Shown piece after piece: positions 1 to 45,452 of a stretch of DNA of 52,487 nucleotides (positions within the stretch are counted from its first letter, which is position 1; each line of letters opens with the position of its first letter). The stretch is taken from IMG/VR virus record IMGVR_UViG_3300035670_000291, positions 1 through 52,487 of that record; one strand, 5' to 3'. The notes below the pieces were generated by a model that saw only the letters and a program-made list of their open reading frames with translations, did no database searches and had not been told where the DNA came from. The translations under genes and the position numbers were made by a program. Source of the stretch: a virus.

Positions 1-3000
1 AACTAATTGCCAATGCTTGTCCATCGGTTTTTTCTCTAACTACTCCCAATTCACCATTTAGTGCTTTTACAATAATATCTTTTAATTCACCAAATGTCAA
101 TTGCATATCATCAAATGGATGTGACATATGACCATATGCACCACCTTCTGATAATAATTTTTTAGTCTCTAATTTATTTTCTTTTATAAATTTAGTAGGT
201 GTAAACGCAACTCTTGGTAAATTATCTATTGTATATTTAATAGTTCTTTCATCCGCATCCTCATCTCCAAATATAGTATCTGCTTTTGGAAAATCGGTTT
301 GAGTGTATCCACCATTTTTATACCAATCTTCACCTTTATATGTGTTCAATTTTCTCTTTTTACCTTTTGGTACAAATGCTCCATCTGGAATATCTGCTGT
401 ATTAGATATTGTTACTGTACTAACTTCGTTTAATCCAAATAGTTCATTTAAGAAATTATCAACTTCATCTACTATTCCAAATACTTTTATAAAAACAGGA
501 GGATTTTCATCTTTATATTCTGCACTTCTAACTAATTTCATTTTGTTAGAACCCATTGATGTAAATTCTTTTTCAAATTTTTGAGCATCTTTTTTATCAT
601 TAAAAATAAATGTATAACTTTTTTTTGATGTTTCAAAATTTATATCACTTAAACTTTTATATTTCTTTACAAATGTATCAAATACTTTTTTAATTTTTGA
701 ATTATTTGATTTATTATAATTCAATTCTTGCAAATACTTATTCGGAAGATTTAATTCTTTTTCCAATTTAGTTATTTCTTGATAATCCATATTTCTTAAT
801 CTTCTTGCAACTTCATCTGCTTTATTACCATTTGGATTATCAAAAAGATATACGTTTATTCTTTTTTTGAATTTTTGATTTCTATAAAGTTCAATAACAT
901 TTTTGAAATGAATATCTCTATTACCCATTTCATTCATAGTTCTAAATGTAGTTGCTTGTTTGCCGTTTATGGTTGGCATTCCGTGAGAATCCTTTCCAAT
1001 ATCCTTTACATCAACTTTTTTGTTTTTGAATTTACCCATTAAAACAGTATCACCTTTATCAACTTTTACATTTATATCTTCTTTTACAGGCTCATATCCT
1101 TTATTTTCGGTATCCTTTGTATTTGATTGATGTCCTGGTTCTCTTTCTCTATCATCATCAAAATCAATGGTATCCAATTCTGCTTCGTATCCTATTTCAG
1201 AAGCATGATTTTGTGTAAAATCTTTATCTGCTTTACTAACAGGTTCATGATTTTTTACAGTATGTGCTTCTTGATATATTTGCTTATCTACTCTACCATA
1301 CTCTCTCATCAATATACCTGCTACTGCATGTGCTTGGTTTTCTATTGGTGAACCATCGGCACCATCTTTTTCTGGATTTCTAACCAAACCCAATTCATCT
1401 TGCTTTCTATGAACCATTTCATGTGCAAGTGTTCTCAATATATCTGCGGTTAATCTACCTTCCGTTGCAACATATATTTCTTTTGTTACCGGGTCAAATC
1501 CACCTAAACTTGTTTTAGTTTCTGCAAACTCTCTACCACCAACCAATGTTACTTTTGGAGTTTCTTTTAATTTTAATCTTTTGGTTGCATATTCTACAAA
1601 CCTTTTAATAGATTGTTGTTTTGTTTCCGAAAGATTTTCTTTTAATAAATCTTGTGCATCATTTTTTGGTTCTTCTTTTTTATATCTTTCTATTGTTTTC
1701 AATAATTGTTCATCGGATAGTTTATATGTTTTCATTGTTTTCAATGTCTTTTTAATTAAATTAGACATGAATTTTTTACTATCTATATTATCATCAATTC
1801 CTTCAAATATACCAGTTGCACCCATTGCAATACCACCACTAGATGCTGTTGCGGTATTTGCACCCAATGCTTCAAATGCGGAATGTTTAATTATATCTTT
1901 CACCACATATTCACCCAAATGCCCACCTGCTAATTTATATCCTGCCTTTGCAGCTGCACCTTTAGCAATTCCCGTTGCACCTGCACCTTTAGCAGCTGCA
2001 CCAACTCCACCAATTATCCCACCTGTAACTGCGATTGAACCAATTATTACCGCAGTTTCAGTTGCCAAACCTTTTAATGCTTTTGTTTGTTTTTTATATT
2101 CACCCCAAGATTGGTCAAATAATTCTTTTTCTTCATCCGTTGCATATTCTGAAACTTTTGGTTTTTTCTCAATTTTCTTTTTACCAGTTGAATGTCCGTG
2201 ACTATCCAATACATCTACTTCATTTTCTTCCCATTCACTATCCCCACCTCTACCAACACTTGTAAATTCACTCCAATGTCTATCGTTACCATCTTTATCT
2301 TTTACACTTCCAACATTTCCAGTAGTTGCCAATGATTTTACTGCTTTCATTGAACCACCCACCATTTCTTTTTTATGGTCAATAACGTGTTTTACACCTT
2401 TAGCAACATATTCATATGCTTCTTTATATCCATCTATTATATCATCAAAAAAAGAACTTCTTTCTTCTGAATTAGGATCATTTAATTTATCAATTGTTTC
2501 ATTTTCTTCCGATGATAACTCTTTCCTAGCATTATCCAAAGTTTCTTTTATCTTATCTTGCTTTCTATCTTTTTCACCACGTTCTGCATCTGATTTAAAC
2601 TCATCTCCACTTAATTTTTGTGGTTCTTGTTCAGGTTGTTCTTGATTTTTAGTATCAGTTTCTTTTGGTTTTTCTTGTTTATCAGACGGTAATCCTTTTT
2701 CTTTTTTTTCCTTATCGGTATCAGATAATGGTGTATTATCATCTGGGACTAATTTTTTAGCCGCAACGTGTGCTGGATGTTCTTTCGGTAATCTTAATGC
2801 ATCTCTTGCTTTTATTTTTGCTTTCTGTCCTTTTGTATTTGTATATTCAATATCCTTATCCAATTGTGGATTTGGTTCTTCTTGCAAATAAGAATTCAAC
2901 CAATCTTCAAATAAATCATCTGTAATTGTATTTGCAATTATTTCTTTTATTGGATCATATAAAAATTCTTTATCCGTATCTAATTTATTTCTCAACTCTT

Positions 3001-3625
3001 TATTTTTCTTTTCAATATCCAATACTTGCTCTTTTGATGGATATCCTCTATATAAGTTTTCACTAATAAGTTTTCCTGTAATTAAATCAAATATATTTTT
3101 GTCAAATTTAGGATAAGCTGTTAAGAAGAATTTCTTTGCTTTCTTATCATCACCACTTCCTAAATTATTTCTAACATCCGTTCCACTAATAGGATTTGGT
3201 TCTGCTGGTACTGCATATACATAACCAATTTCATCATACCCGTATCCTTGCTTTCCTTTGTATGCTTTAAAGTATTTACCTTGTAATCTATCTGCATCTT
3301 TCTCACCAACTGCTGCAATATATTGAGTAGTTTGTCCATCAAATTTAGAAAGTATTTCAACTGGTTTATATGGATTTTTAATTTGGACAAACCTGTTAGA
3401 AGGTATTCCAAACATTGTAGTTGCTATCTTCTTTTTTTCTTTGAAATTAAAAGGTGATTTTGGTCCTGATGTATCATTAGATGTTCCTATAAAAACATTA
3501 TCCGCTCCAAATTTTGAAACTAATTTTTGATAAGATGCATAATGTCCTTTATGGAATGGTTGAAATCTACCAGAATATACAACTACAGTTTTGGTCACCT
3601 TTGGTTTATCTACTTCATTAATCAT
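1..3625 (-). CDS. Multidomain protein: cytidylyltransferase-like nucleotidyltransferase, HExxH metallopeptidase, KxDG ligase-like motif (3' end outside window)
   Basis: The frame is open from the ATG at 3625 to the window edge, about 1208 codons, so the C-terminus is missing. Residues ~14-150 form a nucleotidyltransferase of the HxGH superfamily: GRFQPFHKGH at 19-28 (H25-K-G-H28) and ISGTDVR near 145. A charged, repetitive linker rich in K/E/D/P follows (~250-450), then a Gly/Ala-rich hydrophobic stretch (~580-640). LAHEMVHRKQ carries a zinc-peptidase HExxH motif at 735-739. The last visible residues hold EKTDGQ (K1199-T-D-G1202), which resembles motif I (KxDG) of covalent nucleotidyltransferases/ligases. 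Similar HxGH proteins occur beside tail genes of marine and freshwater T4-like phages (recalled). The combination suggests a large virion-associated or injected enzyme, but the role is unknown. It has both a host-like promoter and a late-type motif upstream. Confidence 0.8.
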   Translation of the reverse strand, partial: MINEVDKPKVTKTVVVYSGRFQPFHKGHYASYQKLVSKFGADNVFIGTSNDTSGPKSPFNFKEKKKIATTMFGIPSNRFVQIKNPYKPVEILSKFDGQTTQYIAAVGEKDADRLQGKYFKAYKGKQGYGYDEIGYVYAVPAEPNPISGTDVRNNLGSGDDKKAKKFFLTAYPKFDKNIFDLITGKLISENLYRGYPSKEQVLDIEKKNKELRNKLDTDKEFLYDPIKEIIANTITDDLFEDWLNSYLQEEPNPQLDKDIEYTNTKGQKAKIKARDALRLPKEHPAHVAAKKLVPDDNTPLSDTDKEKKEKGLPSDKQEKPKETDTKNQEQPEQEPQKLSGDEFKSDAERGEKDRKQDKIKETLDNARKELSSEENETIDKLNDPNSEERSSFFDDIIDGYKEAYEYVAKGVKHVIDHKKEMVGGSMKAVKSLATTGNVGSVKDKDGNDRHWSEFTSVGRGGDSEWEENEVDVLDSHGHSTGKKKIEKKPKVSEYATDEEKELFDQSWGEYKKQTKALKGLATETAVIIGSIAVTGGIIGGVGAAAKGAGATGIAKGAAAKAGYKLAGGHLGEYVVKDIIKHSAFEALGANTATASSGGIAMGATGIFEGIDDNIDSKKFMSNLIKKTLKTMKTYKLSDEQLLKTIERYKKEEPKNDAQDLLKENLSETKQQSIKRFVEYATKRLKLKETPKVTLVGGREFAETKTSLGGFDPVTKEIYVATEGRLTADILRTLAHEMVHRKQDELGLVRNPEKDGADGSPIENQAHAVAGILMREYGRVDKQIYQEAHTVKNHEPVSKADKDFTQNHASEIGYEAELDTIDFDDDREREPGHQSNTKDTENKGYEPVKEDINVKVDKGDTVLMGKFKNKKVDVKDIGKDSHGMPTINGKQATTFRTMNEMGNRDIHFKNVIELYRNQKFKKRINVYLFDNPNGNKADEVARRLRNMDYQEITKLEKELNLPNKYLQELNYNKSNNSKIKKVFDTFVKKYKSLSDINFETSKKSYTFIFNDKKDAQKFEKEFTSMGSNKMKLVRSAEYKDENPPVFIKVFGIVDEVDNFLNELFGLNEVSTVTISNTADIPDGAFVPKGKKRKLNTYKGEDWYKNGGYTQTDFPKADTIFGDEDADERTIKYTIDNLPRVAFTPTKFIKENKLETKKLLSEGGAYGHMSHPFDDMQLTFGELKDIIVKALNGELGVVREKTDGQALAIS

Positions 3626-43490: not shown

Positions 43491-44315
43491 TTATTTAGTT
43501 TTCTTTTTACTGAATGTTAGAATTTTACCTCTTGCATCTGGTTTCCATTGGTTTACTGTTATTACTTCTCCGGATACCATGCTCTTCAATTTTTCTTCTA
43601 TCTTTTTAATTTCCTTTTCCTTTGATGTCTTTGCTGTTGGTGCGTAATCACTTATATAGGATGTATCCCATATAACATCTATCAATTGGATTTCGTTCAC
43701 CAAAAATTCGTTCCAATCTGCGTAAGTATTATCCATATCTGCGAAATAACTCAATATATCCTTTTTATGGGTTTTAGCGAATTTAGTTGCTACATCTATA
43801 TAATCCTTTAAGAATTTACGGATTTCTTTATTTTGTTCATCACCAAATGTTTCCATATGTGATATCTCTCTTCCTCTTTGTTTGAATTTGTTTTTACTAA
43901 ATTCACTGGCCCATAATGTATAAATGTTACTATGAGTTTCATCACGAAAATTAAGCCATCTTCTTCCTTCGTTATCTGGTTTAGACATAATATCATCCAA
44001 TCCTTTCACCAACAAAGTTCCTTCTAAATAAAACAATACACCATCTTCCCATATTCCCATTAATCCATTACTGATTGTACTATTTGGTACTTTGGTTGTT
44101 GTACTTATAGTCTTTTTAGTTCCCTGTAATCCGTTTAGTTGATCTAATCTTTTTATAGATGTTATATGAAATGTTCTAACACGTTTACCTTTATTCAACA
44201 TCTTTCCTATTTCAGGTGTTATTGGAAATGCCTCATTCATCCAAGCCAATTCAAATGCGTGCTTCACCCATTGTGCGTCTACACCTTCCAATAATAAATC
44301 CTTTAACTTTATCAT
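43491..44315 (-). CDS. Putative capsid-targeted protein; weak ADP-ribosyltransferase-like features
   Basis: 274 residues. The N-terminus MIKLKDLLLEG resembles the capsid-targeting leaders of T4 internal head proteins, cut after L/I-x-E (here LLE|G). The next gene upstream starts with almost the same leader. Residues ~45-130 read RVRTFHITSIKRL, LQGTKKTISTTTK, GVLFYLEGTLL and NEGRRWLNF, a pattern I associate loosely with R-S-E-class ADP-ribosyltransferase folds (Arg strand, STT motif). The glutamate cannot be placed with certainty. If right, it would be packaged and injected like T4 Alt. Family assignment is tentative. Confidence 0.55.
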   Translation of the reverse strand: MIKLKDLLLEGVDAQWVKHAFELAWMNEAFPITPEIGKMLNKGKRVRTFHITSIKRLDQLNGLQGTKKTISTTTKVPNSTISNGLMGIWEDGVLFYLEGTLLVKGLDDIMSKPDNEGRRWLNFRDETHSNIYTLWASEFSKNKFKQRGREISHMETFGDEQNKEIRKFLKDYIDVATKFAKTHKKDILSYFADMDNTYADWNEFLVNEIQLIDVIWDTSYISDYAPTAKTSKEKEIKKIEEKLKSMVSGEVITVNQWKPDARGKILTFSKKKTK

Positions 44316-44668
44316 TACTTCTGTTTGTGTTTAATTATTAGTTCACCTAATACTTCTATTAGTCCAACTAATTTCTGAAATTCAATTTGTTCGAAACCAT
44401 CTGCTTCCGTTATACCACAAAGGGTATTCAAATAATTAGTATATTCAGTTTCTGCCATTTTACAATCAAACATACCATCAACTGCGTTTTGGTAGTATGG
44501 TAGTTTAACTACAAAGTGGTTATAAGTTAAAAGTGCGGGTCCACCTTTCTCTTTTGCGTTCTCTGCTATCTTCGTTGCTCCCTCTAATCTTTTTTTACAA
44601 AATTCTATGAACTCTTTGTTATCTACTTTAACTTCTTCTTGTTCTAACAATGATTTTAACTTAATCAT
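44315..44668 (-). CDS. Hypothetical protein with capsid-targeting-like leader
   Basis: 117 residues starting MIKLKSLLEQEE, matching the leader of the adjacent 274-residue protein and containing an L-x-E type cleavage site. The rest is helical, with Cys near 24 and 76 and a Lys-rich end. Its stop overlaps the next ATG by 1 bp. A small internal head protein is the simplest reading; not proven. Confidence 0.6.
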   Translation of the reverse strand: MIKLKSLLEQEEVKVDNKEFIEFCKKRLEGATKIAENAKEKGGPALLTYNHFVVKLPYYQNAVDGMFDCKMAETEYTNYLNTLCGITEADGFEQIEFQKLVGLIEVLGELIIKHKQK

Positions 44669-44915: not shown

Positions 44916-44987
44916 CCTTACAAAAATAAATCCTCTTAAATCACCTTATGATGTGTCAACACATATATCAAAAAAACTCATATAGGG

Positions 44988-45205
44988 AAAAAACTTGACC
45001 GGGATATATTTACGTGTCCGACCGGGGTTCACGCGAATGCGTTTCTTCCAGTTACACGTAATTCAGTGCGCGTGAGTGTGGGTAGTCCTCTGTAACGTAG
45101 ACCAGTTGTGCGTTGCCGGGATGGCACAAGAATCCCGTTGCAACCTTTCGGTCACAACGGGTTCACCCATTAGTTGGGGCTACTCTCGCACGGCATGCAA
45201 TGTTT
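44988..45205 (-). ncRNA. Candidate structured non-coding RNA
   Basis: A ~220-nt gap without any ORF. By hand count 45001-45200 is ~53% G+C in an otherwise A+T-rich genome. On the minus strand: (1) a 12-bp hairpin capped by a GAAA tetraloop at 45161-45134, with two G-U pairs that become A-C mismatches on the other strand; (2) TTGTGC/GCACAA at 45129-45106; (3) TTACGTGT/ACACGTAA (45061-45054 with 45017-45010) enclosing ACTGG/CCGGT and ACGC/GCGT with loop ATTC; (4) a possible closing helix GTGCG+GAGT with ACTC+CGCAC (45191-45182 with 45077-45066). A T6 run at 44993-44988 follows. No match to tmRNA, RNase P, SRP or 6S RNA that I can see. Confidence 0.65.
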
Positions 45206-45230
45206 TGTGTATATAGTACCTACATACAAA

Positions 45231-45452
45231 TTATTTTATTTTGTTACATAGTTTGAATGTAGCAATCCATTCATCACTATTAAATAAGTTTATCATTCTT
45301 TCCTTATTGTTTCTATGTAGTGTTTCATCTACATAGTGTGCAGATATCCTTAGTTCTTTACACCAAGTCTGGAAAGATTTTTGTTTCATTGTTTCTGTTC
45401 TCTCTTTATCTATTTGTTTTAGTCTTTCGTCTGATATAGTGTGTGAGTACAT
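45231..45452 (-). CDS. Hypothetical small protein
   Basis: 73 residues from the ATG at 45452 (MYSHTISDERLKQID); a TTG-initiated extension is rejected. Contains SFQTWCKELRISAHYVDETL and a basic/acidic helical pattern reminiscent of small DNA-binding proteins but without a clear motif. It lies upstream of the structured RNA candidate. Confidence 0.6.
   Translation of the reverse strand: MYSHTISDERLKQIDKERTETMKQKSFQTWCKELRISAHYVDETLHRNNKERMINLFNSDEWIATFKLCNKIK

Follow-up and report, generated by a model that had tools for sequence, protein, structure and literature searches.

Why should two adjacent phage proteins with unrelated bodies begin with almost the same residues? The question is raised by a pair of genes, referred to here as A and B, in a 52,487-bp virus contig of the IMG/VR collection (record IMGVR_UViG_3300035670_000291; this entire stretch is called the window in what follows) that carries the tail and baseplate genes of a T4-like myovirus. 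Both open reading frames (ORFs) lie on the minus strand and have one base in common at their junction (TAATG); A, at 44315-44668, codes for 117 amino acids and is predicted to be a packaged internal protein with an all-helical body, and B, at 43491-44315, codes for 274 amino acids and is predicted to be a packaged effector, possibly with a fold like that of the ADP-ribosyltransferases (ARTs). An initial annotation of this locus had taken the N-termini to be capsid-targeting leaders with an L-x-E site of the kind cut by gp21-type prohead proteases in T4 internal proteins. The comparisons presented here, with T4 as the model, make it quite probable that the common N-termini of A and B are indeed propeptides of the T4 type and that the cargo behind them is packaged, trimmed by gp21 and injected.

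Leaders of A and B and their recurrence

Inspection of the two ORFs bears out the near-identity that the initial annotation had reported: they agree in MIKLK[DS]LL (MIKLKSLL in A and MIKLKDLL in B) and are otherwise unrelated, and each carries an L-x-E site, that of A falling one residue earlier than that of B. The leader of A comprises residues 1-9, MIKLKSLLE (44642-44668, minus strand), and is the same in relatives L005 and L006, with a cut predicted from the sequence behind L7-L-E9 and ahead of Q (MIKLKSLLE/QEE; site at 44642-44650, minus strand). In B the leader, identified from the sequence and by the scan described below, is MIKLKDLLLE (residues 1-10; 44286-44315, minus strand) and the predicted cut lies between L8-L-E10 and G (site at 44286-44294, minus strand). 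At the DNA level the leaders show synonymous differences (ATGATAAAGTTAAAGGATTTATTA vs ATGATTAAGTTAAAATCATTGTTA), and in AlphaFold 2 (AF2) models of both proteins the leader is of low confidence and the body better ordered. The search of the rest of the genome for the leader that had been recommended was run on the 52-kb record and returned no further such leaders besides A and B.

In order to establish how widely the leader occurs, we translated MIK[LF]KD-x-L back into degenerate DNA as a scan pattern, which specifies residues 1-8 and leaves residues 9 and 10 free, and found it in at least 120 stretches of IMG/VR. Among the matches listed, to which the leader counts below refer, there are 125 leader ORFs of at least 30 amino acids, 113 of them without an upstream in-frame ATG, and Glu stands at the unspecified residue 10 in 113 of the 125. 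The 110 clean leader ORFs carry 104 distinct bodies, which fall into at least 65 unrelated families (clean ORFs of at least 60 amino acids, single linkage at E 1e-3); 59 of 65 family representatives have E10, and the information content is 3.4 bits at residue 10 and about 0.4 at residue 11. With the same codons permuted, a control pattern matched 41 stretches across the entire collection and 10 ORFs, one with E10. Among genes of loci that had not been chosen by the leader, the pattern occurs at 10 of 973 N-termini vs 1 of 4552 positions after an internal Met (odds ratio 47, p = 3e-7). The permuted control and this N-terminal enrichment rule out a chance origin of the leader.

The proteins behind the leader include Nudix, exonuclease, P-loop/Zeta, lysozyme and M23 peptidase proteins, together with two that match Pfam ART-PolyVal. 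Runs of leader genes of two types, MKL[LMQ]DI[IL]xE and MK..[IV][TS]ExQL, were also observed in L052, L056 and L058-L061 on large divergent proteins, and of these the latter is possibly a targeting leader too. The open-access papers searched for the string MIKLKDIL did not contain it, and those among them on capsid targeting concern T4, giant phages or P1.

T4 ipII and ipIII start with MKTYQEFIAE and are cut after its final E, ahead of A. According to published work reviewed in PMC9026906, residues 1-10 of T4 IPIII are enough for packaging, with residues 4 and 7 of the leader important in targeting and residues 8 and 10 in processing; in this register MIKLKD[IL]LxE is hydrophobic at 4, 7 and 8 and has Glu at 10. 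The likeness to the gp21-processed leaders of T4 IPI, IPII and IPIII thus extends to a 10-residue N-terminal segment on unrelated proteins, an [LI]-x-E site and, in relatives, a protease of the gp21 family. The differences lie in the sequence itself (MIKLKD[IL]LxE vs MKTYQEFIAE) and in the number of proteins, at least 65 families and several with recognisable enzyme domains, for which packaging is here predicted. Head-internal proteins of phiKZ and SPN3US, which have gp21-like proteases, likewise carry N-terminal propeptides cut after Glu, but these often exceed 100 residues and do not amount to a single short leader shared by the proteins.

Leaders of different sequence can also be found ahead of one body. 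In five IMG/VR proteins a P-loop body beginning G-x-x-DP starts exactly behind the Glu of the leader, and in orthologues from HTVC008M (MIPFILKE/G) and Melnitz (MKTFAELQE/G) it again begins right behind the E, so that distinct leaders fill the same place. Relatives of protein A are encoded by 38 viral contigs and also by Flavobacterium phage immuto. The protein has a body that is highly conserved from F20 onward and an N-terminal segment that differs from phage to phage: MKDLIRQILRE, MKNLIKNILKE, MKLIEMLNE, MKNQIKPFSEFINE, MDNYIKLYSDFLNE, MRLLELLRE and further forms, of which the majority have [LI]-x-E at their end. The AF2 model of A has a predicted local distance difference test score (pLDDT) of 89.5, with values of 58-67 for the first 20 residues. 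No Pfam or PHROG match was obtained for A and PDB searches gave nothing significant; the label of the immuto relative, tRNA(Ile2) agmatinyltransferase, is unsupported by a Pfam scan of A.

Proximity to the gp21 protease and the head genes

No terminase, portal, protease or capsid gene is in view within the window, and a search with PF03420 was negative; the contig stops short of the head genes. A gp21-like protease, which the initial annotation had suggested looking for, is present in relatives: 13 of the 22 records that have A homologues hold one, and in G022, a 102-kb syntenic relative whose baseplate gp6 is 70% identical, it lies immediately beside leader genes. In G022 the multidomain protein is followed by terminase, portal and gp21, behind which come three leader-like genes, one of them with MIKLKNILRE, and then scaffold and capsid. 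Clusters of leader genes near gp21 are also seen elsewhere, with seven in L219 (within 8 kb), five in L300, four in L280 and three in L302. Overall, gp21 lies within 24 of 120 leader loci vs 1 of 41 control loci (p = 0.005), a comparison weakened by the smaller amount of sequence in the control loci (0.38 vs 1.05 Mb). Among long contigs, gp21 is present in 7 of 16 with the leader and 1 of 16 controls (p = 0.04), a contig-level count that might simply reflect that leader and gp21 are each a part of T4-like phages; that leader genes directly adjoin gp21 is harder to explain by such common membership.

The window itself retains one gene of this neighbourhood, a multidomain protein with a nucleotidyltransferase N-terminus at 2-3625 (minus strand), truncated at the contig end. 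With the G022 protein at 63944-68044 it shares 56% identity across 825 aligned positions, and in relatives such a protein directly precedes terminase, portal and gp21; a 1703-residue protein of record G048 that includes a B-like domain is also related to it. Besides the nucleotidyltransferase-like N-terminus (PF01467), we noted in the window's protein a metallopeptidase-like HExxH (AHEMVH) and a KxDG near the contig end.

Weighing the explanations of the leader

A tag that occurs on at least 65 otherwise unrelated proteins, often beside the gene of the head protease, most likely marks proteins that are packed into the head, trimmed and injected, and A and B are accordingly most likely prohead-packaged internal proteins trimmed by gp21. 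Recurrence, E10, T4 register and gp21 adjacency together lend the proposed capsid-targeting leader strong comparative support. By analogy with T4, leader residues 1-9 or 1-10, with hydrophobic residues at 4, 7 and 8 and a Glu in last place, would dock the new protein onto the scaffold core of the prohead; as the head matures, the gp21-type serine protease would cleave after L-x-E and release the cargo inside the head, from which it would be ejected with the DNA into the bacterium. A and B would then be two cargoes from adjacent genes, a small helical protein and a larger presumed effector, and an injected-effector operon is plausible.

Several observations weigh against this account. Twelve of the 125 leader ORFs lack E10, and some relatives of A (L013, L018) begin with MKIIITEEQLKKI, where the cut site is ambiguous. 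The window holds no gp21, some 40 kb separate A and B from the predicted head genes, and 9 of the 16 long leader contigs have no gp21 match; such contigs may be fragments or may use a different protease. Further, the matches listed are not a random sample, and the scan, being tied to one leader form, gives no frequency across all phages. Finally, packaging, cleavage and injection of the leader proteins are what we infer from their sequences and from T4.

This last point leaves some room for a leader that forms an amphipathic helix and binds elsewhere, to the host membrane, a body of phage assembly or replication, or a partner complex, rather than serving as a head-packaging propeptide. Many leader genes do not adjoin head genes, and cargo such as lysozyme and M23 peptidase could act at sites other than the head. 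We consider such a role improbable, given that conservation of the leader ends sharply past E10, that leader genes cluster at gp21, and that E10 and residues 4, 7 and 8 coincide with the targeting and processing positions mapped by experiment in T4. The case is poorer still for a DNA-level origin, by which the leader would be a recombination site or initiation signal, providing exchange or translation control at gene starts and having no function as protein. The leader does stand invariably at the start codon, and leader genes occur in runs, but synonymous codons vary to the extent that 114 of 132 leader 30-mers are distinct, which argues that selection acts on the protein and largely refutes this idea. 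A Shine-Dalgarno-like motif lies upstream of only 21 of the 132 leader genes, and unrelated leader types swap at the same body boundary; we judge a DNA-level origin very improbable indeed.

Protein B as a candidate ADP-ribosyltransferase

Relatives of B, at 95, 67, 45 and 25-31% identity, make up a divergent phage protein family in which many members have MIKLKDLLxE and one branch has MKLQVTESQLKLIEQQQLNE instead. None was found in named phages by tblastn or in bacterial genomes in one scan with one B relative. ARTs are a typical domain of the polyvalent proteins of phages (Iyer et al. 2017, PMC5512222), and in this respect B resembles such proteins, as B-like domains lie within nucleotidyltransferase-headed multidomain proteins of 1066 and 1703 residues, the longer one (in G048, as above) near terminase, portal and gp21; unlike polyvalent proteins, the window's B stands alone behind a short packaging-type leader.

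The initial annotation had likened B to the ARTs by an Arg strand, an STT motif and GRRW segments. Of these, R45 hardly varies within the close set and STT is residues 71-73, and GRRW occurs once (117-120) rather than several times; as a set they are surpassed in conservation by H50, S71 and E203, which are invariant across 16 divergent members, with T72 nearly so. From the alignment, His50 (44166-44168, minus strand), in an invariant F-H, is a candidate catalytic residue and Ser71-Thr72 (44100-44105, minus strand) a candidate for the second ART motif; Glu203 (43707-43709, minus strand), within W-[ND]-E, is the candidate catalytic Glu from both the alignment and the AF2 model. This model, built on a shallow alignment of 10 sequences, has a pLDDT of 70.6 and a predicted template modelling score of 0.70. 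It starts as beta-alpha-beta; two successive strands have His50 and Ser71-Thr72, respectively, close to their ends, and a long strand that comes after a helical insertion is headed by Glu203. VIA comparison indicates a weak resemblance to Tpt1 (Z 4.4, 100 residues, 4.2 A), with PARP14, PARP16, DarT and further chains of Tpt1 at about Z 3; structures of the ART superfamily make up 15 of the 50 VIA entries listed, with Z values that are not decisive, and non-appearance in the VIA lists was not counted as evidence.

The structure prediction that had been proposed as a check points to a weak likeness in fold, one that sequence relations do not reinforce. No Pfam, PHROG or PDB profile and no curated ART family was matched by B, and Foldseek with the model against PDB and BFVD gave nothing below E 0.27. 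In hhalign comparisons of B with two ART-PolyVal proteins the leader aligns and the bodies do not. The Tpt1/KptA family PF01885 was not found in 21 phage records, so that it supplies no ART reference in context. We put the chance that B is ART-like, as judged from its sequence and model, at somewhat under one half. B may have an ART-like fold with an H-S-E triad, and its activity as an ADP-ribosyltransferase is speculative. There is about an even chance that the leader is a packaging propeptide and B another, undescribed effector or an internal structural protein. Favouring such an identity, besides the failed profile, Foldseek and hhalign comparisons, VIA Z values of 3-4.4 are in the range of unrelated matches; the invariance of H50, S71 and E203 and the number of ART-superfamily structures among the VIA entries argue for an ART.

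The catalytic triad of T4 Alt, an ADP-ribosyltransferase packaged in the head, is R-S-E. B is predicted to be packaged as Alt is and might be ART-like, and other leader proteins match Pfam ART-PolyVal; unlike Alt, B has no family-level sequence relation to ARTs and its conserved residues suggest H-S-E. The two ART-PolyVal proteins lie in one record that also holds gp21 (G040), with N-termini MIKLKVLLFE (after an upstream MF) and MIRLKNIVNGILAE, and since both carry leaders, it is very probable, whether or not B is an ART, that this group of phages has ARTs with leaders.

Two further observations were made among the relatives of B. A 173-residue protein encoded next to some of them (L056 5467-5988 and relatives), with the sequence MKLQDILLEKLRDMVSIPIYHHTTEERA, matches Tox-ART-HYD1 of Pfam at a sub-threshold level (E 0.05) and may be another ART-like cargo; a profile comparison of B with this neighbouring YHHTT protein gave no match between the bodies. 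In some relatives (L056 6001-7413, about residues 300-470) the protein is extended at its C-terminus, and the extension contains a G-F-S-Q-G motif, which recalls the nucleophile elbow of alpha/beta hydrolases.

A non-coding stretch upstream of the genes

Upstream of A and B lies a GC-rich non-coding stretch (44950-45240, minus strand; 55% vs 31% GC). It is conserved in L003, L005 and L006, folds better than shuffled sequences (z -2.8) and includes a conserved GAACCCGTTG/CAACGGGATTC hairpin. No Rfam match was obtained; the stretch is possibly an undescribed structured RNA.

Conclusions

A bolder proposal, which we regard as possible and on balance doubtful, is that interchangeable [LI]-x-E leaders form a packaging code, readable from sequence, for the injected set of each phage across large uncultured T4-like phages, and that B founds a new family of leader-bearing, ART-like effectors. 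The sets of proteins that phages inject are normally learned only through virion proteomics of isolates. If the leader is a packaging tag, the injected effectors of uncultured environmental phages would become predictable from sequence alone, the Nudix, exonuclease, Zeta-like and ART-PolyVal proteins among them, and capsid targeting as known from T4 would widen from a few proteins of an E. coli phage to a general delivery route.
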